A stretch of 64,000 nucleotides of DNA from Salminus brasiliensis. Taxonomy: Eukaryota; Chordata; Actinopteri; Characiformes; Bryconidae. Shown in pieces: positions 668 to 64,000 of this stretch. The notes beneath the pieces are model-generated. The model made no database searches and was not told the DNA's origin. It was given only the letters and a program-made list of their open reading frames with translations. The stretch lies in the NCBI RefSeq assembly GCF_030463535.1, contig NC_132881.1:49314703-49378702 (forward strand), in the 5' to 3' direction. Positions within the stretch are counted from its first letter, which is position 1, and each line of letters starts with the position of its first letter. The position numbers and the translations under genes are program-made.

Positions 668-3288
668 CCTGCACCTAATACTAAAACTAACCCTAACCCT
701 AACCTTAACCTTAAAACTAACCCTGCACCTAATACTAAAACTAACCCTAACCCTAACCTTAACCTTAACCCTAACCCTGCACCTAATACTAAAACTAACA
801 TTGACCTTAACCTTAACCCTAACCCTGCACCCAATACTAAAACTAACCTTAACCCTAACCTTAACATTAACCCTAACTATACTAAAACTAACCCTAACCC
901 TAACCTTAACCTTAACCCTAACCCTGCACCTAATACTAAAACTAACCTTAACCCTAACCTTAACATTAACCTAACCCTAACTATACTAAAACTAACCTTA
1001 ACATTAACCTTAACCCTAACTATACTAAAACTAACCTTAACCCTAACCTTAACATTAACCTTAACCCTAACCTTAACATTAATCTTAACCCTAACTATAC
1101 TAAAACTAACCTTAACATTAACCTTAACCCTAACTATACTAAAACTAACCTTAACCCTAACCTTAACATTAACCTTAACCCTAACCTTAACATTAATCTT
1201 AACCCTAACTATACTAAAACTAACCTTAACCCTAACCTTAACATTAACCTTAACCCTAACTATACTAAAACTAACCTTAACATTAACCTTAACCCTAACT
1301 ATACTAAAACTAACCTTAACCCTAACATTAACATTAACCTAACGCTAACTACACTAAAACTAACCCTAACCTTAACCTTAACCTTAACCCTGCACCTAAT
1401 ACTAAAACTAACCTTAACCCTAACCTTAACATTAACCTAACCCTAACTATACTAAAACTAACCTTAACCCTAACATTAACATTAACCTAACGCTAACTAC
1501 ACTAAAACTAACCCTAACCTTAACCTTAACCCTAACCCTGCACCTAATACTAAAACTAACCTTAACCCTAACCTTAACATTAACCTAACCCTAACTATAC
1601 TAAAACTAACCTTAACCCTAACCTTAACATTAACCTTAACCCTAACTATACTAAAACTAACCTTAACATTAACCTTAACCCTAACTATACTAAAACTAAA
1701 CTTAACATTAACCTTAACCCTAACCTTAACCTTAACCCTAACCTTAACATTAACCTTACCCTAACTATACTAAAACTAACCTTAACCCTAACCTTAACCC
1801 TAACCTTAACATTAACCCTAACCTTAACATTAACCTTAACCCTAACTATACTAAAACTAACCTTAACCCTAACCTTAACATTAACCTTAACCCTAACCTT
1901 AACCTTAACCCTAACCTTAACATTAACCTTAACCCTAACTATACTAAAACTAACCTTAACCCTAACCTTAACATTAACCTTAACCCTAACTATACTAAAA
2001 CTAACCTTAACCCTAACCTTAACCTTAACCCTAACCTTAACATTAACCTAACCCTAACTATACTAAAACTAACCTTAACCCTAACCTTAACATTAACCTT
2101 AACCCTAACTATACTAAAACTAACCTTAACATTAACCTTAACCCTAACTATACTAAAACTAACCTTAACCCTAACCTTAACATTAACCTAACCCTAACTA
2201 TACTAAAACTAACCTTAACCCTAACCTTAACATTAACCTTAACCCTAACTATACTAAAACTAACCTTAACATTAACCTTAACCCTAACTATACTAAAACT
2301 AACCTTAACCCTAACCTTAACATTAACCTTAACCCTAACTATACTAAAACTAACCTTAACATTAACCTAACCCTAACTATACTAAAACTAACCTTAACAT
2401 TAACCTTAACCCTAACTATACTAAAACTAACCTTAACCCTAACCTTAACCTTAACCTTAACCCTAACCTTAACATTAACCTTAACCCTAACTATACTAAA
2501 ACTAACCTTAACATTAACCTTAACCTTAACCTTAACATTAACCTTAACCCTAACTATACTAAAACTAACCTTAACATTAACCTTAACCCTAACCCTAACC
2601 TTAACCCTAACCTTAACATTAACCTAACCCTAACTATACTAAAACTAACCTTAACCCTAACCTTAACATTAACCTTAACCCTAACCTTAACCTTAACCCT
2701 AACCTTAACATTAACCTTAACCCTAACTATACTAAAACTAACCTTAACCCTAACCTTAACATTAACCTTAACCCTAACTATACTAAAACTAACCTTAACA
2801 TTAACCTTAACCCTAACCCTGCACCTAATACTAAAACTAACCTTAACCCTAACCTTAACATTAACCTAACCCTAACTATACTAAAACTAACCTTAACCTT
2901 AACCCTAACCCTAACCTTGACCTTAACCCTAACCTTAACCTTAACCTTAACCTTAACCCTAACCTTAACCTTAACCTTAACCTTAACCCTAACCTTAACC
3001 TTAACCCTAACTATACTAAAACTAACCTTAACCTTAACCTTAACCTTAACCCTAACCTTAACCTTAACCTTAACCCTAACCTTAACCTTAACCTAAACCC
3101 TAACCTTAACCTTAACCCTAACTATACTAAAACTAACCTTAACCTTAACCTTAACCTTAACCCTAACCTTAACCTTAACCCTAACCTTAACCTTAACCCT
3201 AACTATACTAAAACTAACCTTAACCTTAACCTTAACCTTAACCCTAACCCTAACCTTAACCTTAACCCTAACCTTAACCTTAACCTTA
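668..3288. repeat. Telomere-like tandem array (CCCTAA/CCTTAA variants)
   Basis: About 2.6 kb is built of six-base blocks CCCTAA, CCTTAA and CATTAA, all in the C-rich orientation on the + strand. A recurrent insert of the type ACTATACTAAAACTAA divides the array into composite units of a few tens of bases. The earliest part also carries a CCCTGCACCTAATACT variant, which returns near 1,388, 1,538 and 2,818. The end grades into simpler CCTTAA-rich repeats. It is flanked by non-telomeric DNA on both sides, so it is an interstitial or subtelomeric array and not a chromosome end. The leucine/threonine-rich open frames across it are translations of the repeat. Confidence 0.93.
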
Positions 3289-6809: not shown

Positions 6810-7950
6810 ATTCTAATGTTATATAGAGTTAATTACAGGTAGACACTCTCACTGACCACTGACTTTATGTTTATGTGGGTTTATTCTAATGTTATATAGA
6901 GTTAATTACAGGTAGACGCTCTCACTGACCACTGACTTTATGTTTATGTGGGTTTATTCTAAGGTTATATAGAGTTAATTACAGGTAGACGCTCTCACTG
7001 ACCACTGACTTTCTGTTTATTTGGGTTTATTCTAATGTTATATAGAGTTAATTACAGGTAGACGCTCTCACTGACCACTGACTTTATGTTTATTTGGGTT
7101 TATTCTAATGTTATATAGAGTTAATTACAGGTAGACGCTCTCACTGACCACTGACTTTATGTTTATTTGGGTTTATTCTAATGTTATATAGAGTTAATTA
7201 CAGGTAGACACTCTCACTGACCACTGACTTTATGTTTATTTGGTTTATTCTAATGTTATATAGAGTTAATTACAGGTAGACGCTCTCACTGACCACTGAC
7301 TTTATGTTTATTTGGGTTTATTCTAATGTTATATAGAGTTAATTACAAGTAGACACTCTCACTGACCACTGACTTTCTGTTTATTTGGGTTTATTCTAAT
7401 GTTATATAGAGTTAATTACAGGTAGACGCTCTCACTGACCACTGACTTTATGTTTATTTGGGTTTATTCTAATGTTATATAGAGTTAATTACAAGTAGAC
7501 ACTCTCACTGACCACTGACTTTATGTTTATTTGGGTTTATTCTAATGTTATATAGAGTTAATTACAGGTAGACGCTCTCACTGACCACTGACTTTATGTT
7601 TATTTGGGTTTATTCTAATGTTATATAGAGTTAATTACAGGTAGACACTCTCACTGACCACTGACTTTCTGTTTATTTGGGTTTATTCTAATGTTATATA
7701 GAGTTAATTACAGGTAGACACTCTCACTGACCACTGACTTTATGTTTATTTGGGTTTATTCTAATGTTATATAGAGTTAATTACAGGTAGACGCTCTCAC
7801 TGACCACTGACTTTCTGTTTATTTGGGTTTATTCTAATGTTATATAGAGTTAATTACAGGTAGACGCTCTCACTGACCACTGACTTTCTGTTTATTTGGG
7901 TTTATTCTAATGTTATATAGAGTTAATTACAGGTAGACACTCTCACTGAT
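6810..7950 (+). repeat. 73-bp satellite, array 1 (forward orientation)
   Basis: About 15.6 head-to-tail copies of a 73-bp unit. Each unit starts ATTCTAATGTTATATAGAG, continues TTAATTACAGGTAGAC and ends TTATGTTTATTTGGGTTT. The period was measured from successive ATTCTAATG starts at 7,102 and 7,175. Units differ at a few fixed sites, for example GACGCTCTC or GACACTCTC and TTTATG or TTTCTG. The same unit recurs inverted at 13,815-16,947, as a single relic near 50,730 and again at the right edge of the window. Confidence 0.96.
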
Positions 7951-13814: not shown

Positions 13815-16800
13815 AAGACAAAGTCAGTGTTCAGTGAGAGTGTCTACCTGTAATTAACTCTATATAACATTAGAATAAACCCAAATAAACATAAAGTCAG
13901 TGGTCAGTGAGAGCGTCTACCTGTAATTAACTCTATATAACATTAGAATAAACCCAAATAAACATAAAGTCAGTGGTCAGTGAGAGCGTCTACCTGTAAT
14001 TAACTCTATATAACATTAGAATAAACCCAAATAAACATAAAGTCAGTGGTCAGTGAGAGCGTCTACCTGTAATTAACTCTATATAACATTAGAATAAACC
14101 CAAATAAACATAAAGTCAGTGATCAGTGAGAGTGTCTACCTGTAATTAACTCTATATAACATTAGAATAAACCCAAATAAACATAAAGTCAGCAGTCAGT
14201 GAGAGTGTCTACCTGTAACTAACTCTATATAACATTAGAATAAACCCAAATAATCATAAAGTCAGTGGTCAGTGAGAGTGTCTACCTGTAATTAACTCTA
14301 TATAACATTAGAATAAACCCAAATAAACATAAAGTCAGTGGTCAGTGAGAGCGTCTACCTGTAATTAACTCTATATAACATTAGAATAAACCCAAATAAA
14401 CAGAAAGTCAGTGGTCAGTGAGAGTGTCTACCTGTAATTAACTCTATATAACATTAGAATAAACCCAAATAAACATAAAGTCAGCGGTCAGTGAGAGTGT
14501 CTACCTGTAATTAACTCTATATAACATTAGAATAAACCCAAATAAACATAACGTCAGTGGTCAGTGAGAGTGTCTACCTGTAATTAACTCTATATAACAT
14601 TAGAATAAACCCAAATAAACATAAAGTCAGTGGTCAGTGAGAGCGTCTACCTGTAATTAACTCTATATAACATTAGAATAAACCCAAATAAACATAAAGT
14701 CAGTGATCAGTGAGAGTGTCTACCTGTAATTAACTCTATATAACATTAGAATAAACCCAAATAAACATAAAGTCAGCAGTCAGTGAGAGTGTCTACCTGT
14801 AACTAACTCTATATAACATTAGAATAAACCCAAATAATCATAAAGTCAGTGGTCAGTGAGAGTGTCTACCTGTAATTAACTCTATATAACATTAGAATAA
14901 ACCCAAATAAACATAAAGTCAGTGGTCAGTGAGAGCGTCTACCTGTAATTAACTCTATATAACATTAGAATAAACCCAAATAAACAGAAAGTCAGTGGTC
15001 AGTGAGAGTGTCTACCTGTAATTAACTCTATATAACATTAGAATAAACCCAAATAAACATAAAGTCAGTGGTCAGTGAGAGCGTCTACCTGTAATTAACT
15101 CTATATAACATTAGAATAAACCCAAATAAACAAAGTCAGTGGTCAGTGAGAGTGTCTACCTGTAATTAACTCTATATAACATTAGAATAAACCCAAATAA
15201 ACATAAAGTCAGCAGTCAGTGAGAGTGTCTACCTGTAATTAACTCTATATAACATTAGAATAAACCCAAATAAACATAAAGTCAGTGGTCAGTGAGAGCG
15301 TCTACCTGTAATTAACTCTATATAACATTAGAATAAACCCAAATAAACATAAAGTCAGCAGTCAGTGAGAGTGTCTACCTGTAATTAACTCTATATAACA
15401 TTAGAATAAACCCAAATAAACATAAAGTCAGTGGTCAGTGAGAGCGTCTACCTGTAATTAACTCTATATAACATTAGAATAAACCCAAATAAACAGAAAG
15501 TCAGTGGTCAGTGAGAGTGTCTACCTGTAATTAACTCTATATAACATTAGAATAAACCCAAATAAACAAAGTCAGTGGTCAGTGAGAGCGTCTACCTGTA
15601 ATTAACTCTATATAACATTAGAATAAACCCAAATAAACATAAAGTCAGTGGTCAGTGAGAGCGTCTACCTGTAATTAACTCTATATAACATTAGAATAAA
15701 CCCAAATAAACATAAAGTCAGTGATCAGTGAGAGTGTCTACCTGTAATTAACTCTATATAACATTAGAATAAACCCAAATAAACATAAAGTCAGCAGTCA
15801 GTGAGAGTGTCTACCTGTAACTAACTCTATATAACATTAGAATAAACCCAAATAATCATAAAGTCAGTGGTCAGTGAGAGTGTCTACCTGTAATTAACTC
15901 TATATAACATTAGAATAAACCCAAATAAACATAAAGTCAGTGGTCAGTGAGAGCGTCTACCTGTAATTAACTCTATATAACATTAGAATAAACCCAAATA
16001 AACAGAAAGTCAGTGGTCAGTGAGAGTGTCTACCTGTAATTAACTCTATATAACATTAGAATAAACCCAAATAAACATAAAGTCAGTGGTCAGTGAGAGC
16101 GTCTACCTGTAATTAACTCTATATAACATTAGAATAAACCCAAATAAACAAAGTCAGTGGTCAGTGAGAGTGTCTACCTGTAATTAACTCTATATAACAT
16201 TAGAATAAACCCAAATAAACATAAAGTCAGCAGTCAGTGAGAGTGTCTACCTGTAATTAACTCTATATAACATTAGAATAAACCCAAATAAACATAAAGT
16301 CAGTGGTCAGTGAGAGCGTCTACCTGTAATTAACTCTATATAACATTAGAATAAACCCAAATAAACATAAAGTCAGCAGTCAGTGAGAGTGTCTACCTGT
16401 AATTAACTCTATATAACATTAGAATAAACCCAAATAAACATAAAGTCAGTGGTCAGTGAGAGCGTCTACCTGTAATTAACTCTATATAACATTAGAATAA
16501 ACCCAAATAAACAGAAAGTCAGTGGTCAGTGAGAGTGTCTACCTGTAATTAACTCTATATAACATTAGAATAAACCCAAATAAACAAAGTCAGTGGTCAG
16601 TGAGAGCGTCTACCTGTAATTAACTCTATATAACATTAGAATAAACCCAAATAAACATAAAGTCAGTGGTCAGTGAGAGTGTCTACCTGTAATTAACTCT
16701 ATATAACATTAGAATAAACCCAAATAAACATAAAGTCAGTGGTCAGTGAGAGTGTCTACCTGTAATTAACTCTATATAAAATTAGAATAAACCCAAATAA

Positions 16801-16947
16801 ACATAAAGTCAGCGGTCAGTGAGAGTGTCTACCTGTAATTAACTCTATATAAAATTAGAATAAACCCAAATAAACATAAAGTCAGTGGTCAGTGAGAGCG
16901 TCTACCTGTTAACTCTATATAACATTAGAATAAACCCTAATAAACAT
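13815..16947 (-). repeat. 73-bp satellite, array 2 (inverted, higher-order)
   Basis: About 43 copies of the same 73-bp unit as at 6,810, here reverse-complemented (CTATATAACATTAGAAT and TAAACATAAAGTCAGTGG). Diagnostic variants show nested periodicity. A GTAACT variant sits at 14,215, 14,799 and 15,817 (spacings 584 and 1,018). A CAGAAAG variant sits at 14,401, 14,985, 15,494, 16,003 and 16,512 (spacings 584, then 509 three times). A two-base deletion variant (AAACAAAG) sits at 15,131, 15,567, 16,149 and 16,585, the pairs being 1,018 apart. The array therefore grew by copying blocks of 7-8 and 14 units. Confidence 0.96.
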
Positions 16948-16994
16948 AGAATCATAAACACTGATGATAATGTTTAAGCTTTACATTAAACATC

Positions 16995-30504: not shown

Positions 30505-33500
30505 TCATCCGAGGAATTCCACCAGTTTCTGAAGTTCAGGACAGCTTTTCACCACCTCAGGAACAGAAGACAGAGCCTGCAATAAACAAACAAACAAACA
30601 AACAAACAAACAAAATCAAATCACAAGCTGGATACGAGACCTGACTGGGGTCAAATCTCTGACCTCACAATGACACCCACTGTAACAAGACCTTCGGCTG
30701 TAACAAGACCCGCTGACTGTAATGACAAACATGACCCATACAGTCGTTGGGGGAGGAGCTGAACCACTGTTTTCACAGCGTATAATTTCAGATATTCTCT
30801 GACAGTGTAAACACTGTTCGACACTGTCCAGGTTTCTGAATGCGGACCCTCACCTTTCTAACTGCCTCGATCATATCATCCAGCAGATGCAGCTCACGCT
30901 CCAATTTACTCTGATTCATGGTGTGCACCATTTGCTGAAAGAGAGAGCAAAAACAACAACGATTACGTAAGAAATTATTAATCTGCAGCAGTTCTAGTAT
31001 TTTCATTTGACTTATAAATCACAGTAGTCCTATAACTAAACACTCCATCCACTGAGATACAAACCAGCTGCATTGAGTTATGATCAGAAATTTCCCACAG
31101 ACCAACTGATTTAAAGCTCTGAATGAAAGTGCAGTTCTTACGTGTCTCTTTGCCCGTTCCAGAAGTTTCGTTCGTGATTCCTCCACCTCCAAGAGTTTAG
31201 TCTTTAGTTTCTCCACCTGTGGACAAAGAAAACGCTTAAAATATTCCATGCTTTGCCTTGTACTTATATTAGCATTTAAATCACACATAGACAAAGTTTG
31301 TGGACACTCCTTCTATTGAACGCATTCAGCTACTTTAAGTTGCTCCCATTGCTGACACAGATGTGCAAATGCACACACACAGCTTGTCTAGCCCCTGTAG
31401 AGAAGAAGTACTGCCAATAGAATAGGACTCTCTGGAGCAGATCATCATCATGACCCTATTGGCTCCATGCTGCCTAATAATGCCAGGCGTGGGCTAGAGG
31501 GGTATAAAGCCCCCCAGCATTGAGGAGCTGTGGAGCAGTGGAGAAGCTGTGCTCTCTGAAATGATGGTGGTGGAGCTCCATCCAGTACTTTTGGGATGAG
31601 TTGGGGGTGATCATCCACCCAACATCCTGACCTCACTAGAACTTCTAATTTAAATCAAATCTACACAGCAATGTTCCTCCAAAATCTAGTAGAAAGCCTT
31701 CTTCCCTGGACAGTGGACGAGCAGGTGTCCCAAAACTTTTGTCCATATATTTCTCAAATAAATAAATCAAGTAAGCTTCATCTACCTCTCTGAGTAGACG
31801 GATTCGATCATCCAGTTCCTTTGAGCTGGCTGTTGATTGGTCACCTGATTGTGTTAATGCAGCCCTTAAAGCCTGCACCTCCACCTGGGACTGTTGAAGC
31901 ATCCTCCGTAACTCCGCCCCCTCCCGTCGCAGCTCCTACAACAACAAAGAGTGAAAACGTTAAACTCTAGGGGTGTGTGGGGCCATCCTTTAGTTTCTCA
32001 GTGAGTGTGGATATGGAGAATGCTGTGTGTTGGGGTGTGTGGTTCACTTACATTGTTCTCTGCTCTGTATTTACTCACTGCCTCCATGTTCTCCTCCAGC
32101 TCACTGCAAAGCTTTCTCAGAGCTTTCTCATCCTGAGCATGCAAACACCGTGCAGAGAATTATTACCCTTTATTAAAGTATCGTTCACTTTAATGCTCTT
32201 TAATGCCTGTAACACAGCTGCCTTAACCTTACGCTGTACATCACACGCTCTATAATAAATCATATGATCCACACGCTCATTCTGACAGACTGTAATACAC
32301 TACAGGAAGCGTAGGGGGCGCTCTATAATGCTCTATAATAAATCATATGATCCACACGCTCATTCTGACAGACTGTAATACACTACAGGAAGCGTAGGGG
32401 GCGCTCTATAATGCTCTATAATGTTCATATGATCCACACACTCATTCTGACAGACTGTAATACACTACAGGAAGCGTAGGGGGCGCTCTATAATAAATCA
32501 TGATCCACACACTCATTCTGACAGAATATAATACACTACAGGAAGTGTAGGGGGCGCTCTATAATGCTCTATAATGTTCATATGATCCACACACTCATTC
32601 TGACAGACTGTAATACACTACAGGAAGCATAGGGGGCGCTCTATAATGCTCTATAATGTTCATATGATCCACACGCTCATTCTGATCGACTGTAATACAC
32701 TACAGGAAGCATAGGGGGCGCTCTATAACGCTCCATAAAGTTTAAATGATCAACATGCATACCAAAGGGGGAAACATTTGAAATAATCTAAAATAAATAA
32801 TAAGACCATTGATAATTTGGCATGCGAGCAGACTCTACTACTGAAGTATGAAGCTTGAGAGACAAATATTTCGAACCTGTGTTTTCTGCTGTAGAAGCTG
32901 AGCGTCCTTCTCCGCCTGAGCCTTCAGTCGGCTCACCTGCTGCTTCAGCTCTGCCTCCTCAACCCTGTGCCTGTCAGATTCCTTCTGAAGCGACTCCTGC
33001 AGGCCATCACTGGAACAACAGCAGGACTAAAGTCAGTAAATGTTTCTGGATTGGCCTCGATAAAGCTCCAGAGATGCTAACTAACACATTCTTTAGCCAC
33101 TATACATAGTAAATTATACACACACACACACACACACAATCAGGACAAAAGTGTTGACACCTGATTATTCATTGTTTCCTGTGAAATCAAGCGTATATCT
33201 ATCTATAGATAGCTGGTCCTGCTTCTGTTGGAGTAACTGTCTCTACTGTCCAGAGAAGACGACTTTCTACTAGATGTGGAGAAGGAGCATTGCTGTGAGG
33301 ATTTGATTGCATTCAGCAACAAGAGCGTTAGTGAGGTCAGGATGTTGGATGATGATCACCATCCACCTCATCATCCCCAACTCATCAAAGAAGTGCTGGA
33401 TGGAGCTCCTCCACCATCATTCCAGAGAACACAGTTCCTCCACTGCTCCACAGCTCCTCAATGCTGGGGGGCTTTATACACCTCTAGCCCACGCCTGGCA

Positions 33501-36037: not shown

Positions 36038-36073
<36 letters not shown>

Positions 36074-38392
36074 AATGACCTCTGTTCTGACAGAGGTCAT
36101 TTGCATTGTGGGGGCAGTGGTGGCTCAGCGGTTAGAGCTCCGGGATATCGATAACAGGGTTGTGGGTTCGATTCCCGGGCTCGGCAAGCTGCCACTGTTG
36201 GGCCCTTGAGCAAGGCCCTTTACCCTCTCTGCTCCCCGGGCGCTGGAGTTGGCTGCCCACCGCTCTGGGTGTGTGTGTGTACTCACTGCCCCTAACACGT
36301 GTGTGTGTGAGTGTGTGTTCACTACCAGATGGGTTAAATGCGGAGGACACAAATACGTGCACCTTTACCTGACTGGCTGCTCTTTATGGTCTTGTCAGGA
36401 TGCAGTCTGAGCTAAACTATAGTAAAAGGGCAGGGGTAAACAGTGACACCTTTTTAGGTTAGATAAACCCTCATCAGACTCTCCGTGACAGAGCAGCATC
36501 TGGACATTCAGTAGATCATCAAGAGACTTTTACTGAATCCGAGTCCAAGTTCAGATCTGTAGCTGTTCACCTGAGAAATCACTGATCATCTAACAGCTCT
36601 AATATAGATCATCTCACCAGCCTCAACCTGCTGCTGACACCAGTCTGGAACTGGATTAGCCTGGGATTAAGGGGGCAGAGATAGTATTAGGTTCTGGATT
36701 GAGGTTAAGGTTAAGGTTAGGATTAGGGCCAGGATTAGGTTCTGGGTTGAGGTGGAGGTTAAGGTGAGGATTAGGGCCAGGATCAGGTTCTGGGTTGAGG
36801 TTAGGATTAAGGCCAGGGTTTGGTTTGGTTTAATGGGAGTAACATATTGAGTCTACTTGATGTTACAGACCAACAGTGAACCTAAACTGCTGTAGACTGC
36901 TCTCGAAAAGTGGACCCATGTCAGTGAATGAACTCAACTCATGGCAAAGCTAATCAGAGAAGGTAAATGTAAGCAAACCTTGGCAGTGGAGGCGTTTGTG
37001 CTGCTGGTCAGACAGCGCACTCGGTCCTGTAGGAGGGAAGCGTCCAGCGTAGCTTGAGCCAGCTGTGCCCCCTGCTCCAGCAGCATACCGCGGGCTTTTT
37101 CCTGCGTACTGACCAGCTCCTCCTGCAGGGAGTCCCTCTCAGCTCTACACAACACACAGACAAACATCAGGAGAATGAGGACATGAGGGTGTCTGTCAGG
37201 TCTGTCTCTATCACAGATTTATTATATTAATATATTAACAGATCAAACAGCCACACAGTCAACATTTCATGTTAGTAAGTGCAGTAAATTCTTTAATTAA
37301 AAGTGATTAATTCCTGGTGTGTGAAGAGTATAATATCTAAAACAGCAAACACACACACACACACACACACCTTATCAGGTAAGAGTGACGGTTTGAATGA
37401 CATTAAGTTGGTTGGTGCGGTGCAACAGATAACACCACTACCTGCTACCACACCATGTGGGAGGTTCGGTCTAGGTGACTGTGCTGCACTATACCAGTAA
37501 AAGCCCTTGGGCAAAACTCCCAACACTGCACTGGCCCACTTCTGTAATACCGGTAATACCTTGTAAGTCACTCTGGAAAAGAGCCTCAGCTAAATACTGT
37601 AAATATAACACTACACCTCTATTTTAAGTTAAGTGAATAGGTGGAGCTGACCTGCTGTAGGCTGCCTTCTTCGGGGAGGGGCTAAAGCCCTATGAGCTCC
37701 ATCCATTTTACTCTCTGAACTCAGACTTATTTAGGTATTTAAGTGTCTTTAAAAGTTACAGGTATTTGAACAGATTTTTAGTTTTAAATAAATAAATAAA
37801 TAAATAAATAATTAAATAACATCTGACTTTCTGGACACATATGGACACGTCCTCTATTATTTTAACAGGCCTACACACCCCTTGTGTCTAAATGCGTGTG
37901 TCCATGTCTGGTGTTTGAGTCTGTGTGTGTTACCGTAGCTGCTGCAGAGCCAGTCTGAGGTCCTCACACTCTAGATTTCTCTCCCGGAGCCCCTGCAGGT
38001 GTGATCGTAGCAGCCCCTCACTCTCAGTCAGCTGTTCCCGGGTCAGCTCATTCTCTGCCTGCAGGAACTAATAAAACCACATAAAGTCTTTATAAAACAA
38101 ACAAACCAGAACAGGTTTCTTCTTTCAACATTTTCACATTCTGAGCTACCAAAATTAATTAATAGTTAATAAAAGGATTTACAGTAACCTAATCAGCTCC
38201 ATTTGCAGTGAAGTGGGTTAAGCCCTTCCAGGCCTCAGAGTGGGTACAACTCCTGCAGTCAACTCGGGAGCACACAACTCTGAGTTATGATACTGGGCTC
38301 ACAATTCTACATACGGCATCCACACAGTAAACCAAGACTGAGGGATGTAATGGAAATGATCTAACTACAAGTGATGTGTCTGATGTGATATG

Positions 38393-47400: not shown

Positions 47401-48677
47401 AACAAGGCCAATTGTGCTCTCTAGGGCCCCTGCTGCCGAAGGCTAGCAGCATGACTGGGATTCGAACCAGCGACCCTCTGATCATAGCGACAGCGCCTTA
47501 GTCCACTGGACCACTCGCACAAAACTTTTATTTTTTGACCAATATCTGATCCAGCATTTTCTTCGGACTTCTGTCTGGTCCACATAACTGGTACTGGATA
47601 AGCATGCCTTCTACTGAACACCAACACAGCAACTACTAACTTACCTCCACAGCAGAGGGTCAGTAGAGGTGCACGCATCCGACACCTCCTTCACCACTTC
47701 CACCAGTGCGGACGTGTTCACGCTTCGTTCAGCCCACTGTACCGGTGTGGTCCACGCTGCGGCGCTGTGGCGTCCCACTGGAGTGGTGCCCACCTCAGCA
47801 TTGTGGCACTGGGCTGGTGCTGGCGTGGGAGGGGCTGCGATTTTTCCTGAAGCCAAAATAAGCAGCTCTGCCATCTGCCTCAGCTGCTGCTGGAGAGGAC
47901 CCTTACCCATAGCGGAGAAGTCCAACGCGGGGGCTTTCTCTTTCGGCCTCACAGACGCCTTTACTTCCCTGCGTTTATGAGGCTGTGCGGATGTGGGAGT
48001 GAGGGGTAAGGCAGTGGAGTTGAACTGGGGTGGAGGCAGGGGGCTTTCAGGGAGCTCGGGCCACAGACGGCTCTCTAGGTTTCCCTCACCGTGGCCCTGC
48101 AGATACAGATATACAAACACAAATGAGAGGCAGAGAACTCACTGGCCACTTTATGAGAAACCCCTATACTTGTACTTCTCTATTGGCCACTTTATTAGAA
48201 ACCCCTCCCTCGTACTTCTCTACTGGCCACTTTATTAGAAACCCCTAGCTTGTACTTATCTACTGGCCACTTTATTAGAAACCCCTAGCTTGTACTTATC
48301 TACTGGCCACTTTATTAGAAACCCCTAGCTTGTACTTCTCTATTGGCCACTTTATTAGAAACCCCTATACTTGTACTTCTCTATTGGACCCTTTATTAGA
48401 AACCCCTAGCTTGTACTTCTCTATTGGCCACTTTATTAGAAACCCCTAGCTTGTACTTATCTACTGGCCACTTTATTAGAAACCCCTAGCTTGTACTTAT
48501 CTACTGGCCACTTTATTAGAAACCCCTAGCTTGTACTTATCTACTGGCCACTTTATTAGAAACCCCTAGCTTGTACTTATCTACTGGCCACTTTATTAGA
48601 AACCTCTACATTGTGCTTTCACTTATTATATTATATAAAATTATATAATTATATATATATAATTATATAAAATTATA

Positions 48678-48761
<84 letters not shown>

Positions 48762-51700
48762 TAAAACACTGATTTTAAATGCGAGCTTGTATCGCCCACT
48801 CTTACCCGGAGGACGCTGCTGCTGAGAGCTTTGTTCCTGGGAGTTGAGGGGTCTTGCAGGGTCAGGGCACTCCACAGTTGACTGTGTACAGGCACGGCAT
48901 CACCGAGACACTCCTGAACGCTTTCAGCACGCATGACTTCAGACCCAGAGTGGACGCCACTCAGCCCCAGAGCACTGTCCCGCACTATACTGGCATCCGT
49001 TTCCACAGCAGCGTGTGGAACCTGCGAGCTCCGGGCATCAACGTTTCCATATTCAGTCACAGAATTCCCAACTGCTCGGGAATAAGACGACTGCGTGTGT
49101 TGAGCAGCCACATTTTGGGCCCTGGCATTTCCTAATTTCAGCCCAAGATTCTCCGCAGCCATGGCAACAGCAGCTTGGAAGTAGGAGGATTCTGCGTTTT
49201 GGGCTGGCACATTTTGGGCACTGATATTTTCCAAATCAGATCCAAAATTCCCATTAGCTATGGCAACAGCAGTTTGGGAACATGACGATTCTACATTTTG
49301 TGATCCGATGTTTTCTGACTCTGGCCCAAAAGTTCCTGCAGCCATGGCAACAGAAGCTTGGGAGCAAGATGACTGGGTATTTTGGACCAGAACATTTTGA
49401 TCACAGACGCTTACCAGTTCAGGCTCAAAATTCCCAGTAGCTATGGCAACAGCAGCTTGGGAATAACACAATTCAGCATTTTGGGCGCTGACATTTGCAG
49501 ATTCAGGCCCAAAATCCCCAGTGGCCATGGCAACAGCACCTTGACAGTGAGGGAATTCTGCTTTTTGGGCCAGCACATGGTTTTCTTCATTACTGGAGAC
49601 TGATTGTTGGACGCAGAGCTCTTGACAGTGCAGTGAAGAAGAGTGCTCACTCTGGGCACCAGTGTTTCTACATTCGGCCTCAATGCCAACATTAACTTGG
49701 CAGCAAGACGGTTCAGGGTTTTGGGTCAGCATGCTCTGGACATCAGTGTTTCCAGATTCAGCCTCAACATTTCCAGAAGCCATGCCAACATGAGCTTGCA
49801 GATGAGGTGACGTGCCACGTTCACCAACATCTGAGAAGGCTTCCTTCTTTTCTGGTGAAGACTGACAGGCAGTCAACTCAGGCTGATCTTCTCCGCATTG
49901 GTCTTCTTCATTATCAGAAGCTGACTGCTGGCTGAGGACATCCTGACCCTGTACAACATCTGTAGTTTGTAGCTCGGTTTCTCTGCAGTGTAGTGACAGA
50001 GAGTGCTGACAGCCACTCAAGGATCTGAGATCTTCCTCAGCTTCAGCATTTGTAGAGACTGACTGCTGGCTGAGGTCATCCTGACACTGTAAGGCAAAGC
50101 AAGGAGATCTCATTTATATGGAACACCTCACAGACAGAGGTCAATCAAAAGGTCTGTACATAAATATAAGTAGAAAAAAAAATGTCTGACCTCTGTTTTG
50201 GTCTTTGAACCATTAACCGCTTTCAAAGCACTCTTCAATTCTTAATCTATGCTTTTAAGAAGGATTTACTTCATGGCCAAAAGTATTGGGACACCTGCTC
50301 ATTCATTCATTGTTTCTTCTGAAATCAAGAGTATTAAAAGGAGTCTATCCTGCTTTTGTTGGAGTAACTGTCTCTCCTGTCCAGAAAAGAAGACTTTCAC
50401 AGCATTGCTGTGAGAATTTGATTGCATTCAGCAACAAGAACATTAGTGAGGTCAGGATGTTGGATGATGATCATCACCCCATCTCATCATCCCCAACTCA
50501 TCTCAATTAAAACTACTGGATGGAGCTCCTCCACCATAATTTCACAGTTCTTCCACTGCTCCACAGCTCCTCAATGCTGGGGGGCTTTATACCCCTCTAG
50601 CCCACACCTGGCATTATTAGGCAGCATGGAGCCAATAGGGTCATCTAGTTTATCTGCTCCAGAGAGTCCTATTCTATTGGCAGTACTACTTTACTGACTG
50701 TGCACAGAGGCACAATAGTAAATATTACAGGCACTGACTTTATGTTATGTGGGTTTATAAATATATGTTATATAGAGTTAATTACAGGTAGACACTCTCA
50801 CTCTCACTCGAAAGCAGAGAGGCACATGTATGGTTGTAGGATTTGAGTTCTTACTTCTGAACCCACCTTATTTTTACTATGACGAAGGCGAGAGGGGTTC
50901 TGGCTCTGGTCGGACAGCTCTGTGCCAGCAACCATCTCTTCAGGAACTAATGAATTCTCCAATTCAGACTTCAAACTCTGAGATCCATCAGATCCTCCAG
51001 GACTGGCAGTTCCAGAGCTTTGCAATTGGACAGAAGAAAGCTGTAGTCTGGAGTGATCTTCATTCTCAGAGATAACTGGCTCTGGAATTGATGGGTTGGT
51101 GGCTTCGCCTCTATGTACAACATCATCTTCAACACGACAGTAAAGGTGGTCGGCATGTTCACCTTCAGGGGACAAAGCTGCAGAGCTTTCTCCATCATTT
51201 TCATTCAAACCACAGGTGAACATTTGTGGGAGACCATCTACAGCCAGGTTCTTTAGTAGCATGGACATCTCAGACATGCCACGTGTATTCTCAAGCTCGA
51301 GCTCCACTCCTGAGAAGTTTAGCGATTTCAACGTGACGTCTCCATGTTCCTCCACTAGCTGCCTCAACACCGTGGAGATATCCGCGCTGGAAAGATGCTG
51401 GATGTGACCTGCATTAGAAAGCTTCTCAGAATGACAGTAGGGGTGATCAGTATGGCGGCTGGGAGACACTGGTAGCTCTGAGTGCTCTTCAGAAAGTTCA
51501 GATTCATTCCCAAAACTCTCAGCAGGATCTCCCAGTGGGGAGTCTTCAGCCAGAATTGAGCCACCTTGCATGACTGACCCGTCTGCAACCTCAATCTCTC
51601 CTCCTGGACAAGTGAAGGACTTAAAGGTGATGTCTGCCTGTTCTGTAGAAGAAGAAACTGTAGAAGTAATGTCAGCTTGACCTGCAGAGCAGACCTCATC

Positions 51701-52673
51701 AAGCATTTTCCCTTCCTCATCAGACACATCAGCTGTGCAGGTAGTTTTGTCAGTGGGGTAAGTACAGTACGGATGGTCAGTATGTTCACTGCTGGCCAAC
51801 ATGGCCTCAGTATCTTCTCCATATGCTACAGTTGTGTTATTAAGAGTCTGTGGGCCGTCTTCCAGTGATAGAGCTCTAATAAGAGCAGACACTTCAGACA
51901 TTTCAGATTCTTCTGAAACTTCTACCTCCCCTCCCGAACACAAGAACGATTTGAATGTGATGTTTCCCTCGTGGTTATTGACAACATCTGCGCCCTCATC
52001 TCCATCTCCGCCTCTGCAGATGCTTGGGGAAAGGCTGGCGATGGTGGTGTGGTCAGGTTTTGTACCAGAGGCAGGGCTCGGGTTTTCATTCTGTGTAAAG
52101 CAGGGAGGAATAACACTCTTATTCACAAAGGAATTCCAGCAGTTCCTAAATGTAGACTTGGGAGTGTAGAGTGGGGGTTTGGTATAAAGTGTGGCTCATT
52201 GTGGAGACATTTACTGGGTTGACTCTGGTCTCAATCAGTATTGTGTATCCATAATCATGTGGAGATTTACCTTTCAGTATTAAACTCTTCAGGCGTCTGG
52301 TTCTACTCACCACTACTAAACACTCCTTTGTTTTTCAACATACCTCAGCCTGAGCTAGATTCTTGTCCTGCAGTGACGCTGTTTTAACAGTTGGTGTTTT
52401 CTGCAGCTGCACAGCCGGCCTTTCATTCTGGACCTCTCGCAGTGGAGTTCTGTCAGACCTCATCAGAGGCTGCTGGGAAGAGAAACACCCTGTTAGGCAA
52501 ATCCGCTAATGAACATAACCAACCTGACGCCATCATGCAGACATCCAATAACATGTGCTGCATTCTGCAGAGCAATGGTTTATCAATGCTTTTCCCTGTT
52601 AAATCAATAAATACATGAATAAAAATACAAGAGAGCAAATATAAGCACTTACCTGTCCTCTGGTATTCGACAT
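30505..52673 (-). CDS. spag5: Sperm-associated antigen 5 / astrin, 27 coding exons
   Basis: Astrin is a spindle and kinetochore protein that stabilises microtubule attachment and chromatid cohesion in mitosis. Coding exons in transcript order: 52673-52653, 52472-52344, 52090-50867, 50086-48806, 48096-47645, 46903-46714, 45194-45078, 44946-44854, 43976-43842, 43528-43409, 42813-42721, 42633-42499, 41583-41490, 40703-40556, 40083-40033, 38632-38458, 38058-37934, 37144-36979, 35863-35722, 35611-35513, 33911-33782, 33009-32877, 32132-32079, 31935-31786, 31216-31142, 30934-30854, 30576-30505. They total 5,685 nt and all phases agree (1,894 residues). Matches to human SPAG5 from memory include RTPLRE near the N-terminus, SVNTSALVE, a TLIMVEVLSQQL helix, SKSSAFTRLA and the end PEVVKSCPELQKLVEFLG. 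Everything after about residue 1,040 is coiled coil. The protein is about 700 residues longer than human, mainly in two repeat-rich N-terminal exons. Confidence 0.9.
31287..31752 (-). mobile_element. Intronic MITE, family A, copy 1
   Basis: The right end GGTGTCCCAAAACTTTTGTC is the reverse complement of the start of the copies at 33,134 and 50,271. The interior shares CAATAGAATAGGACTCTCTG and the CCAGCATTGAGGAGCTGTGG block with the other copies. No transposase is present. It lies in a spag5 intron. Confidence 0.8.
32225..32740. repeat. Intronic minisatellite of 60-85 bp units
   Basis: Six or seven units each contain ATGATCCACACGCTCATTCT, then GACTGTAATACACTACAGGAAG and GGGGGCGCTCTATAATG. Unit length varies through loss or gain of a CTCTATAATG block. 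It is intronic in spag5. Confidence 0.9.
33134..33697 (+). mobile_element. Intronic MITE, family A, copy 2
   Basis: It begins AATCAGGACAAAAGTGTTGA and ends GCACAAATATTTGGACATAT, forming imperfect inverted termini. The interior matches copy 1 in reverse orientation and carries the diagnostic TTGGAGTAACTGTCTCTACT near the left end. Confidence 0.8.
34430..34640 (-). mobile_element. Intronic MITE, family A, partial copy 3
   Basis: Only one end is present. It shares GCTACTTTAAGCTGCACCCA, then CAAATGCACACACACAGCTTG and CAATAGAATAGGACTCTCTG with copy 1 and in the same orientation, then breaks off after the GGTGTGGGCTAAAGGGGTA block. Confidence 0.75.
36071..36372 (+). mobile_element. tRNA-derived SINE preceded by a hairpin
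   Basis: The SINE head GTGGCTCAGCGGTTAGAGCT holds an A-box-like sequence and GGGTTCGATTCCCGG a B box. The body contains GGGCCCTTGAGCAAGGCCC and GGGTTAAATGCGGAGGACAC. Directly before it, 36,071-36,104 is a 14-bp perfect inverted repeat (GCAAATGACCTCTG / CAGAGGTCATTTGC) around a 6-base loop. It lies in a spag5 intron. Confidence 0.85.
36690..36835. repeat. G-rich degenerate minisatellite
   Basis: Three units of about 50 bp carry GGTTCTGGGTTGAGGT, GGATTAGGGCCAGGAT and GTTAAGG. The GGTTAGG/GGATTAGGG strings are telomere-like but probably coincidental. Confidence 0.75.
37397..37612 (+). mobile_element. V-SINE/tRNA-SINE-like element
   Basis: The head GTTGGTTGGTGCGGTGCAAC resembles a tRNA A box, and GGGAGGTTCGGTCTAGG a decayed B box. 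The tail is CTTGTAAGTCACTCTGGAAA and GAGCCTCAGCTAAATACTGTAAAT, the common tail of many fish SINEs. A solitary tail of the same kind lies at 39,885-39,940. Confidence 0.75.
38391..38432. repeat. GT microsatellite next to an exon
   Basis: About 21 GT units lie some 25 bases from the 3' boundary of the spag5 exon 38,458-38,632, inside the following intron. Confidence 0.95.
38822..39616 (+). mobile_element. Non-autonomous TIR DNA transposon, 0.8 kb
   Basis: It starts CACTATATGGACAAAGTATT and ends CAATACTTTTGTCCGTGTAGTG; the ends are inverted repeats of about 25 bp with few mismatches. No transposase frame is intact. The termini resemble those of the family A MITEs in this gene (GGACAAAAGTATTGGGACAC), so the two are probably related. 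It lies in a spag5 intron. Confidence 0.8.
39885..39940 (+). mobile_element. SINE tail fragment
   Basis: TTTGTAAGTCGCTCTGGATA followed by AGAGCTAAATGCC is the conserved 3' tail of a fish tRNA-SINE, without its head. Confidence 0.65.
45688..46282. mobile_element. hAT-like MITE with GATGCACCGATC termini
   Basis: The left end TAGAGATGCACCGATC and the right end GATCGGTGCATCCCTA are inverted repeats with one mismatch in 16. The interior repeats ATCGGAT and GATATCGGTC near the ends. It is about 0.6 kb long with no transposase. The hAT assignment is by resemblance of the termini. It lies in a spag5 intron. Confidence 0.8.
47125..47522 (-). mobile_element. tRNA-derived SINE, antisense
   Basis: On the minus strand the head reads GAGTGGTCCAGTGGACTAAG (A box) and about 40 bases later GCTGGTTCGAATCCCAGTCA (B box), a degraded tRNA outline. 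A body of about 300 bp follows. Because of its long non-tRNA body I call it a SINE and not a tRNA gene. It sits next to the spag5 exon at 47,645. Confidence 0.78.
47645..48096 (-). CDS. spag5: spag5 exon joining N-terminal region to coiled coil
   Basis: This 452-nt exon encodes a Pro-rich stretch (LPESPLPPPQFNSTALPLTP), a basic segment (PHKRREVKASVRPKEK), a helix QQLRQMAELLILASGK and the motif SVNTSALVEVVKEVSDA. The last resembles the VNTSVMLENL region of human SPAG5. The STDPLLW end continues into the next exon in phase 2. Confidence 0.85.
48145..48605. repeat. 40-bp minisatellite
   Basis: About 11-12 tandem units read TAGCTTGTACTTATCTACTG followed by GCCACTTTATTAGAAACCCC. The first units vary (CTATACTTG, CTCCCTCG) and the later ones are nearly identical. 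It begins about 50 bases upstream of the acceptor of the spag5 exon 47,645-48,096. Confidence 0.95.
48640..48762. repeat. TA microsatellite in spag5 intron
   Basis: AATTATATA blocks followed by about 40 TA units, ending only some 45 bases before the donor of the large exon ending at 48,806. The Tyr-Ile end of the open frame in this area is read-through into this tract. Confidence 0.95.
48806..50086 (-). CDS. spag5: spag5 exon with SQAAVAMATGNF tandem repeats
   Basis: A 427-codon exon starts with LSQQSVSTN / LSQQSASDN repeats. It then holds at least five tandem, diverged copies of a unit of about 35-40 residues, of the type SQAAVAMATGNFGPESENV followed by SAQN and NAESSC. The last copies are decayed. 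It ends at the donor CCGG|GTAAGA and stays in phase 0 at both ends, so it could be skipped without a frameshift. Human astrin, as I recall it, has no such repeat. Confidence 0.85.
50271..50690 (+). mobile_element. Intronic MITE, family A, copy 4
   Basis: It begins CATGGCCAAAAGTATTGGGA and shares TTGGAGTAACTGTCTCTCCT, GAGGTCAGGATGTTGGATGA and GAGAGTCCTATTCTATTGGC with copies 1-3. The right terminus is missing. Confidence 0.8.
50728..50808 (+). repeat. Solitary relic of the 73-bp satellite
   Basis: One diverged unit in the forward orientation is recognised from CACTGACTTTATGTTATGTG, TGTTATATAGAGTTAATTAC and AGGTAGACACTCTCACT. It follows the truncated end of MITE copy 4, just downstream of the spag5 exon 50,867-52,090. 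Confidence 0.85.
50867..52090 (-). CDS. spag5: spag5 exon with three diverged TFKSF/HPYC modules
   Basis: This 408-codon exon is acidic and lacks coiled coil. It contains three diverged modules. Each has a GNITFKSFLCSGGEVEVSE-like segment (the others read ADITFKSFTCPGGEIEVAD and GDVTLKSLNFSGVELELEN), then in the first and third a SEVSALIRALSLEDGPQ-like helix, and then an EHTDHPYC-like tail. The spacing is roughly 100-130 residues. The conserved TFKSF and DHPYC motifs look like short linear binding motifs. What they bind is not known to me. Confidence 0.85.
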
Positions 52674-52935: not shown

Positions 52936-53647
52936 TAGAGGTGGGTGATATGGTAAAAATATTATGTCACGATATTTAAATAAATTTTTTTCACAATACA
53001 CAATATTTATCACAATACATATAATACATGTAATTACAAACTAAATACATCAGTAGTGACAGATTCTTATAAACTACTACTCAGATACAGTGCTCTTCAT
53101 TCAACATCTGCTGCTCTTCATCTAATTAACCCAGTCTAATCACACGGTCAGTAATAAACCTGCAGCTGATCAGTGTTTATTAAGTGTATCTCCTCCATAT
53201 GATCAGAAAAGCTTACTGGTATAACCACAACATCATTTTTCTCGATACGATAGCAGGATTTAGCAGCCAGTAGCAGTTACACAATACAGCACAGTAATAC
53301 AAGGTGGTACATAGGTAATAAGGGTGGTACATAGGGCTGGGTGATATGGTAAAAATACCATATCACGACATTTTCACAATATACAATATTTATTACAATA
53401 CACAATACAATACAATACAGACAGAAAACTACTACTCACTGTTCCGAGTACAGTGATTTTTATTCGACATCTGCTGAACGTCATCTAATTAAACCAGCCT
53501 AATTACACTGTCTGTGATGAAACCTGCAGGTAGTCAGTGTTTATGTAGCACATCAGTATCTTTGATAAGATTAGAATGGCATATTGTGTATCGCAATAAC
53601 AGAATTTATCACAATACGATAAAGTATTGTCATATTGCCCAGCTCTA
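52936..53647 (+). mobile_element. Two tandem hAT-like MITEs (GGGCTGGGTGATATGG)
   Basis: The second copy (53,332-53,647) starts TAGGGCTGGGTGATATGG and ends CATATTGCCCAGCTCTA, its inverted terminus. The first copy (from 52,936, TAGAGGTGGGTGATATGG) shares the interior, including CATCTGCTG and TCATCTAATTAA, but lacks its own right terminus. Neither codes for a transposase. Both lie in the 5' UTR intron of spag5. Confidence 0.75.
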
Positions 53648-53683
53648 GTGGTACAGTATAAAAAGAAGTAGTCCAGACACAGC

Positions 53684-53685
53684 CA

Positions 53686-53719
<34 letters not shown>
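53684..53719. repeat. AAT microsatellite
   Basis: About ten AAT units. Confidence 0.9.
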
Positions 53720-53778
53720 TTAACATACATACATTTATCCCCTTGTGACTTTTATAGTTAATAGTTAATTCATGCCTC

Positions 53779-53890
53779 AACGTAATAAAATATTCACTAA
53801 AAATAAACAATACTGTAATCTATAGATAAATATATATATTTATCTATAGATTACAGTATTGTTTATTTTTAGTGAATATTTTATTACGTT
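53779..53890. repeat. Perfect 112-bp palindrome without spacer
   Basis: The left arm, 53,779-53,834, starts AACGTAATAAAATATTCACT. It is the exact reverse complement of the right arm, 53,835-53,890, which ends AGTGAATATTTTATTACGTT. I compared all 56 positions of each arm and found no mismatch and no loop. The symmetry stops abruptly on both sides. It lies in the first (5' UTR) intron of spag5. Confidence 0.95.
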
Positions 53891-54673
53891 AATATTTATA
53901 TATCTCACTTACTACACTGAGTCAAGAATATATACAAAAACATATCTACTGTACTAATTATCATCACTGTAGATGACACACAGAATAAATGCAGAAATAT
54001 TCATGTGAACCTAACCAGGGAGGAACGCAGAGAAGTCAAAGAATAAAGAGTGAATAATGTGCTAGAGGAGCAGGGTATCAGCAGATAAATGACCATACTG
54101 AATGAATATGTGCATATATGGGTATTTCAATAAAGTGTAATGTGTCAGTAGTGTCCAGGAGTGCAGATGTACCTGATGTACAGTAAACACAAAACATAAA
54201 AAAACAATAACACAAACAAACAGAGCACTAACCCTGAACTGATGAGGCTATATCGTGAACTCCAGAAGAGCAGGGAGTTTAGGTGACACTAAACTACAGA
54301 AATATCAGCATTTCCTTCCCTGCACTGCACTGCCTGGGCACCAAAACATGGGCTCCAGTCTGCTGCTGTACCTGCACATGGTGGGTGTTTCCATTATTTT
54401 GGACACTCCTAGTAATGCCAAAGCATGTGGAACTTTAAAGCTGATTATCTCGAGATAATCAGTCAAAGTTAAGCTAATATTCCCCTTAATCAGGATCTAG
54501 GTAGAATGTACTGCTCAGTGTTAGCTAGCTAGCTAAATGCTGTAGGCTAGCTGCTCCTGTGTTGTTTAGCTAGTGCTAAAGCTACATGAACAGCTACAGC
54601 CTCTCTCTTTGTGTTTATGGCTCAGAGCTGATGTGAGTCAAACTGATATTAAATAAAGGAGTAAAGGTTGTAG

Positions 54674-54746: not shown

Positions 54747-54871
54747 GCTGGGTAGCTAGTGCTAGCTAACGTTAGACTGACCCTGCTCATCCAAAGCTTC
54801 ACACTTTAAGGCTACATGCAGTGTGACTTACTGAAACGCGGGCTGTGACACAGCTCCACACACACCCTTAC

Positions 54872-63789: not shown

Positions 63790-64000
63790 TTGTTATTTGT
63801 TATTCTAATGTTATATAGAGTTAATTACAGGTAGACGCTCTCACTGATCACTGACTTTATGTTTATTTGGGTTTATTCTAATGTTATATAGAGTTAATTA
63901 CAGGTAGACGCTCTCACTGATCACTGACTTTATGTTTATTTGGGTTTATTCTAATGTTATATAGAGTTAATTACAGGTAGACGCTCTCACTGATCACTGA
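63790..64000 (+). repeat. 73-bp satellite, array 3 (forward, cut by window end)
   Basis: Almost three units in the same orientation as array 1, with GATCACTGA in place of GACCACTGA. The array continues past the window. It lies upstream of the first visible trmo exon, so it is in the trmo first intron or the promoter region. Confidence 0.95.

Follow-up and report, generated by a model that had tools for sequence, protein, structure and literature searches.

Spacerless palindromes are well documented in the human reference sequence, where 783 of 100–200 bp and 718 longer ones have been catalogued (PMC7680136). Two lines of work bear on how such sequences may originate. Foldback inversions at double-strand breaks in yeast range from 2 to ~150 bp, and most are shorter than 14 bp (PMC11724301). 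Short-range template switches have been described from AT-rich DNA of great apes (PMC7954356), and template switching can create perfect hairpins and stems (PMC8794818). Palindromes can also be the unit of a transposon family, as is Made1 (PMC1784062).

A 112-bp palindrome of the fish Salminus brasiliensis shares properties with each of these systems. It is AT-rich and spacerless as are the human palindromes (PMC7680136; PATRR), but has 0 mismatches, whereas the human catalogue admits up to four. As in yeast foldback insertions, a short inverted duplication of adjacent DNA appears joined to the DNA of the other side; its 56 bases are within the yeast range and long for the class (PMC11724301). 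The yeast assay locus differs in having a 41-nt spacer, and the fish locus in having a second inverted segment and a break that is only hypothetical. The likeness to template switches of the four-point model lies in the insertion of a neighbouring reverse complement, a perfect inverted repeat made in one step and an AT-rich setting, and local inversions belong to the same class of events (PMC7954356, PMC8794818). Fifty-six bases is close to the largest pattern mentioned in the rRNA template-switch study (59 bp). The published cases rest on ancestor–descendant alignments, whereas here repeat copies stand for the ancestral form. Finally, the fish sequence resembles Made1 as a short palindrome that would give a hairpin if transcribed; unlike Made1, it is not itself the repeated unit (PMC1784062).

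The palindrome and its genomic setting

The window is the whole stretch of 64,000 nucleotides that was analysed, positions 49314703–49378702 of contig C4 in a 1.07-Gb assembly of 103 contigs. Recomputation places the perfect palindrome at 53779–53890, with two arms of 56 nt that are 100% complementary and a spacer of 0 nt. None of the 56 arm pairs differs, and the preliminary description of a 112-bp perfect spacerless palindrome at this place is thus correct. The arms have a G+C content of 9/56. If as many as three mismatches are tolerated, the symmetric region grows by one pair only, to 53777–53892. No other perfect spacerless palindrome in the window is as long, and the other 14 of the 15 listed are all within a (TA)n run at 48676–48763. 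In 30 windows simulated with an order-4 Markov model the longest arm was only 7–11 nt, and therefore a chance origin of the 56-nt arms is excluded. A search tolerating as many as three mismatches finds a 17-base stretch from the end of the arm nowhere in the window but at the two arm ends. Coordinates of the palindrome and of the repeat segments discussed below are in Table 1.

Table 1. Parts of the palindrome and of the dispersed repeat copy that contains it
Feature	Position	Strand	Remarks
Segment A	53648..53696	+	Left portion of this repeat copy, oriented as in the family; resumes after the nested hAT-like element
Segment P, 30 bases	53752..53781	+	Inverted here relative to other copies; in opposite orientation, just before C, in 13/14 copies
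Left arm, 56 nt	53779..53834	+	53782–53832 (segment C) is the part common to 13 other repeat copies
Central ATATATATAT	53830..53839	.	Self-complementary turn, 10-base AT run; from sequence and predicted folds
Right arm, 56 nt	53835..53890	+	Exact reverse complement of left arm; probably the derived, inserted copy; absent after C in 13/13 other copies
Bases between right arm and segment D	53891..53903	+	13 bases, A and T only; possibly continued inverted copy (alignment to copy L017); AT-rich, hence uncertain
Segment D of dispersed repeat	53904..54187	+	Directly follows C in other copies

The palindrome had been placed in the first intron of spag5. Long minus-strand open reading frames are found on both sides of it, and donor-like motifs are seen by eye on the minus strand at 54871 (GTAAG) and 52343 (GTATG). 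A position in intron 1 is therefore plausible by eye, but the name spag5 is unconfirmed: five open reading frames from the putative gene body all stay below the Pfam cut-offs, the match of one of them to MscS_porin (E 0.0056) being sub-threshold. The minus-strand reading frame at 50804–52195 encodes internal repeats of the form HTDHPYC ... ITFKSF.CPGGE.EV (by eye) and has no Pfam match.

Several other repeats are present in the window. A degenerate telomere-like TAACCT array of ~450 units lies at 688–3288, although the window is ~0.9 Mb from the contig end. A 73-bp satellite (96–100% matches) is found at 6810–7949, 13820–16948 and 63800–64000, in both orientations by consensus. Two spaced inverted repeat pairs, each 92% complementary, are at 31478–31611/33370–33503 (134 nt) and 33597–33685/34418–34506 (89 nt). 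A listing of local hairpins, with low-complexity arms removed, shows four besides the palindrome, with arms of 13–26 nt; a hairpin at 36069–36106 has perfect 17-nt arms and a 4-nt loop and is not of low complexity. A 20-base arm pattern gave 0 matches in viral_contigs and genome_contigs, and a blastn search with 53690–54000 gave none in plasmid or phage collections, all of these being collections without this kind of organism.

Segment order in the dispersed repeat

A search of the fish's own genome with the 112 bp finds the sequence itself complete and 10 other places with partial matches, mostly to one arm and with 77–90% identity, among the best candidates scored. A second full copy with the same ends is not present among these best candidates. 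The search for genomic copies of a single arm, which the preliminary description had proposed, shows that the arm belongs to a dispersed repeat, and 13 other copies carry segment C. The DNA to the right, 53891–54400, is found in at least 39 other genome places (best 40 of 342 candidates scored), with many matches stopping at 54187. By local alignment a single repeat copy covers 53648–54187. Nested at its left is a hAT-like element at 53332–53647 (ends placed by eye), which has a direct duplication, GTGGTACA, matching in 8/8 positions by the same test as was applied to the palindrome; copies L012 and L021 show the uninterrupted insertion site. A stretch similar to the hAT-like element is found upstream, with a related end near 52936.

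Where the parts are kept, the order in the family is A-P-C-D, whereas that of the window is A, inverted P, C, inverted C, D. Copies were counted as having C at a local score of at least 40, which gives 13 (10 in a first set, and L025, L027 and L028 in a second); L011, L013, L014, L019 and L020 score below 40 and were not counted, and L011, L013 and L020 match mainly the AT-rich centre. Copy L021 has lost C and was counted for P only. The identity of C to the other copies is 80–90%. In 12 of the 13 copies C is joined directly to D: nine have one base between them and L025 has −3, whereas the junctions of L012 and L010 were read from the alignment, because the best D match of the script lay elsewhere. 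The junction in the family is GATAAATATCTCACTTAC, with small changes, and a mirror arm after C is found in none of the 13. The exception is L018 (contig C6), where 264 bases that include a long TA run separate C from D. This region of L018 (1188–1500), and likewise L050, corresponds to the spot of the window's mirror arm, and the AT run with which C ends is a possible hotspot. It should be pointed out that these are paralogous repeat copies and not the orthologous locus of a relative; what the window's own copy looked like prior to the event is thus inferred from other copies.

This arrangement bears on whether the sequence is a palindromic MITE of ~108–112 bp that integrated whole, at a site such as TTAA. 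It has terminal inverted repeats, and near-perfect palindromic MITEs exist (Made1; PMC1784062). The symmetry extends to TCAA/TTAA with one mismatch, but the TTAA is of little weight, since 43% of 20000 random sites also show pairing of one or both outside bases. The left arm, moreover, is an ordinary portion of the larger repeat, and the right flank follows it directly in 12 of the other 13 copies. There is no target-site duplication among direct repeats of 2–11 bp sought outside the palindrome, and when the ends are shifted inward by as many as eight bases, the only words that repeat, CG, ACGT, TA and AT, are self-palindromic. The many copies with the same ends that were anticipated earlier for an ordinary foldback transposon were not found among the best candidates scored. 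Insertion of a MITE is consequently very improbable.

The same junctions bear on the converse, in which the palindrome came first and one arm was later lost from the other copies. Long palindromes are fragile and recombinogenic (reviewed in PMC7999016), and loss of an arm would be in keeping with that. However, the near-identical C–D junction in 12 of 13 diverged copies requires that the loss took place in their common ancestor, and that an arm pair free of differences was kept in this old copy alone. Such a history appears extremely unlikely.

Segment P provides a second departure from the family order. It was scored in 14 copies, the 13 with C and L021, and L009 is the one that fails, with no clear P (score 20). 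Scores in the inverse orientation are 25–56 against a null maximum of 21 from 300 1-kb pieces of the window, and those in the window's orientation are 13–24 against a null maximum of 25. The weakest inverse scores, 25–30, are those of L002, L003, L025 and L028, and are to be read with a null from 1-kb pieces and second-set loci of more than 3 kb. In the family, P is bordered by inverted words, TTATTAC before it and GTTATAA or GTAATAA after it (by eye), and it is between such words that an inversion by template switching is expected.

Foldback molecules produce spacerless inverted copies, and a foldback or chimeric molecule in the consensus would make the palindrome an artefact of assembly or library, as the preliminary description had considered. 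However, the copy is short and has a clean end, after which the repeat continues with the part that is expected there. Both flanks belong to one repeat copy in family order, and with a second inverted segment adjoining, the same place would have to harbour two rare artefacts. An artefact thus seems quite unlikely.

The predicted hairpin

Secondary structure modelling predicts an RNA fold of −70.9 kcal/mol (z −21) and a DNA fold of −51.5 (z −19.5). The strong RNA fold, together with sub-threshold Rfam microRNA matches (best 42.8 bits vs 100), might suggest that a functional hairpin, such as a small-RNA precursor, has been maintained. Yet none of the 16 listed Rfam matches reaches the gathering score, and 15 of them are on the palindrome, most occurring on both strands in mirrored pairs, a pattern to be expected of an AT-rich hairpin. 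The earlier proposal that the palindrome might be maintained finds no support here, and we regard it as very unlikely.

A probable local inverted duplication and its relative age

The joining of C to D in 12 of 13 copies, none with a mirror arm, argues for a local inverted duplication in this copy rather than a palindromic transposon, and the two neighbouring inverted segments, P and the copy of C, point to template switching. The palindrome is therefore best read, with a probability of about 0.88, as a template-switch (foldback) mutation that arose locally within an old copy of a dispersed repeat. The preliminary description had held that it is not a simple inverted segmental copy; the C–D junctions of the other copies indicate that a local inverted copy is what it is. 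The right arm reproduces the adjacent sequence exactly, as its reverse complement. In terms of exact symmetry there is indeed no duplication past the arms, but in the comparison with L017 the inverted alignment continues, with small gaps, to 53905, and the inverted segment may thus exceed the palindrome by as many as 15 bases.

The sequence of steps can be visualized as follows. A polymerase, or a broken 3′ end, would arrive at the AT run that ends C and turn back, copy C and at least three more bases (outer bases AAC/GTT) in reverse, and then return to D. The turn would be at ATATATATAT, and no spacer is visible because this sequence is self-complementary. The inversion of P, between TTATTAC and GTTATAA/GTAATAA, would be the same kind of event, and it may have formed part of a single complex event together with the inverted duplication of C. 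What the sequences display is the family order, the two inverted segments and the identity of the arms; the choice of an enzyme pathway, of replication or a break as the occasion, and of one event or two belongs to the interpretation.

An argument from the similarity of the right flank to the right arm (11/13) was dropped. The first 13 bases of the flank are all A or T, and the argument loses its force because of this: 74 of 850 sites with an all-A/T start of this length match in at least 11/13 positions. Against sites matched for AT content over 40 bases, where the similarity seemed strong, the counts are 64, 23 and 144 of 9730, and without TA runs 52, 11 and 132 of 9695; an all-A/T null without (AT)5 runs gives 9 and 80 of 596, and shuffles of the 13 bases give 94/20000. 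The hairpin at the junction (40/3000) was dropped as well: a self-complementary AT run is present at the turn, but 289 of the 850 all-A/T flanks are equally good. Unanchored local alignment of the flank is unremarkable (423/3000) and gapped anchored alignment uninformative (739/3000). The mirror model, left flank with right arm, has no support (score 0; 809/3000). The order modelled in the dropped argument, left arm with right flank, is the order found in the genome copies.

The D part of the window copy differs by 22–24% from L004, L017, L018 and L022, whereas the arms have 0 differences, and the duplication would therefore be later than the repeat. It is probably much younger than the repeat copy, unless conversion has evened out the arms. 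Exact symmetry alone dates weakly: by a simple Poisson calculation the probability of no difference at 112 sites is 0.33 at 1% substitutions per site, 0.11 at 2% and 0.05 at 2.7%. The palindrome had been thought possibly very recent, and this can be upheld only in the relative sense of identical arms in an old repeat copy.

A more specific history may be proposed tentatively, and is somewhat doubtful: a single germ-line template-switch event with two reverse excursions, in which 30 bases were inverted and the next 56 or more were inverted and duplicated. This would have formed a perfect intronic hairpin of the length of a small-RNA precursor at one stroke, with the order before the event kept by the other repeat copies.

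How perfect spacerless palindromes originate is difficult to determine when only one sequence is available. In the present case the order before the event can be read in other copies of the repeat, and the palindrome can therefore be traced to a local inverted duplication, an origin as a transposon being very unlikely. The class of event is already known, and the case is unusually well documented within one genome. Dispersed repeats can thus provide the reference against which template-switch events are recognized in one and the same genome, and a single step, next to another small inversion, can create a long perfect hairpin.
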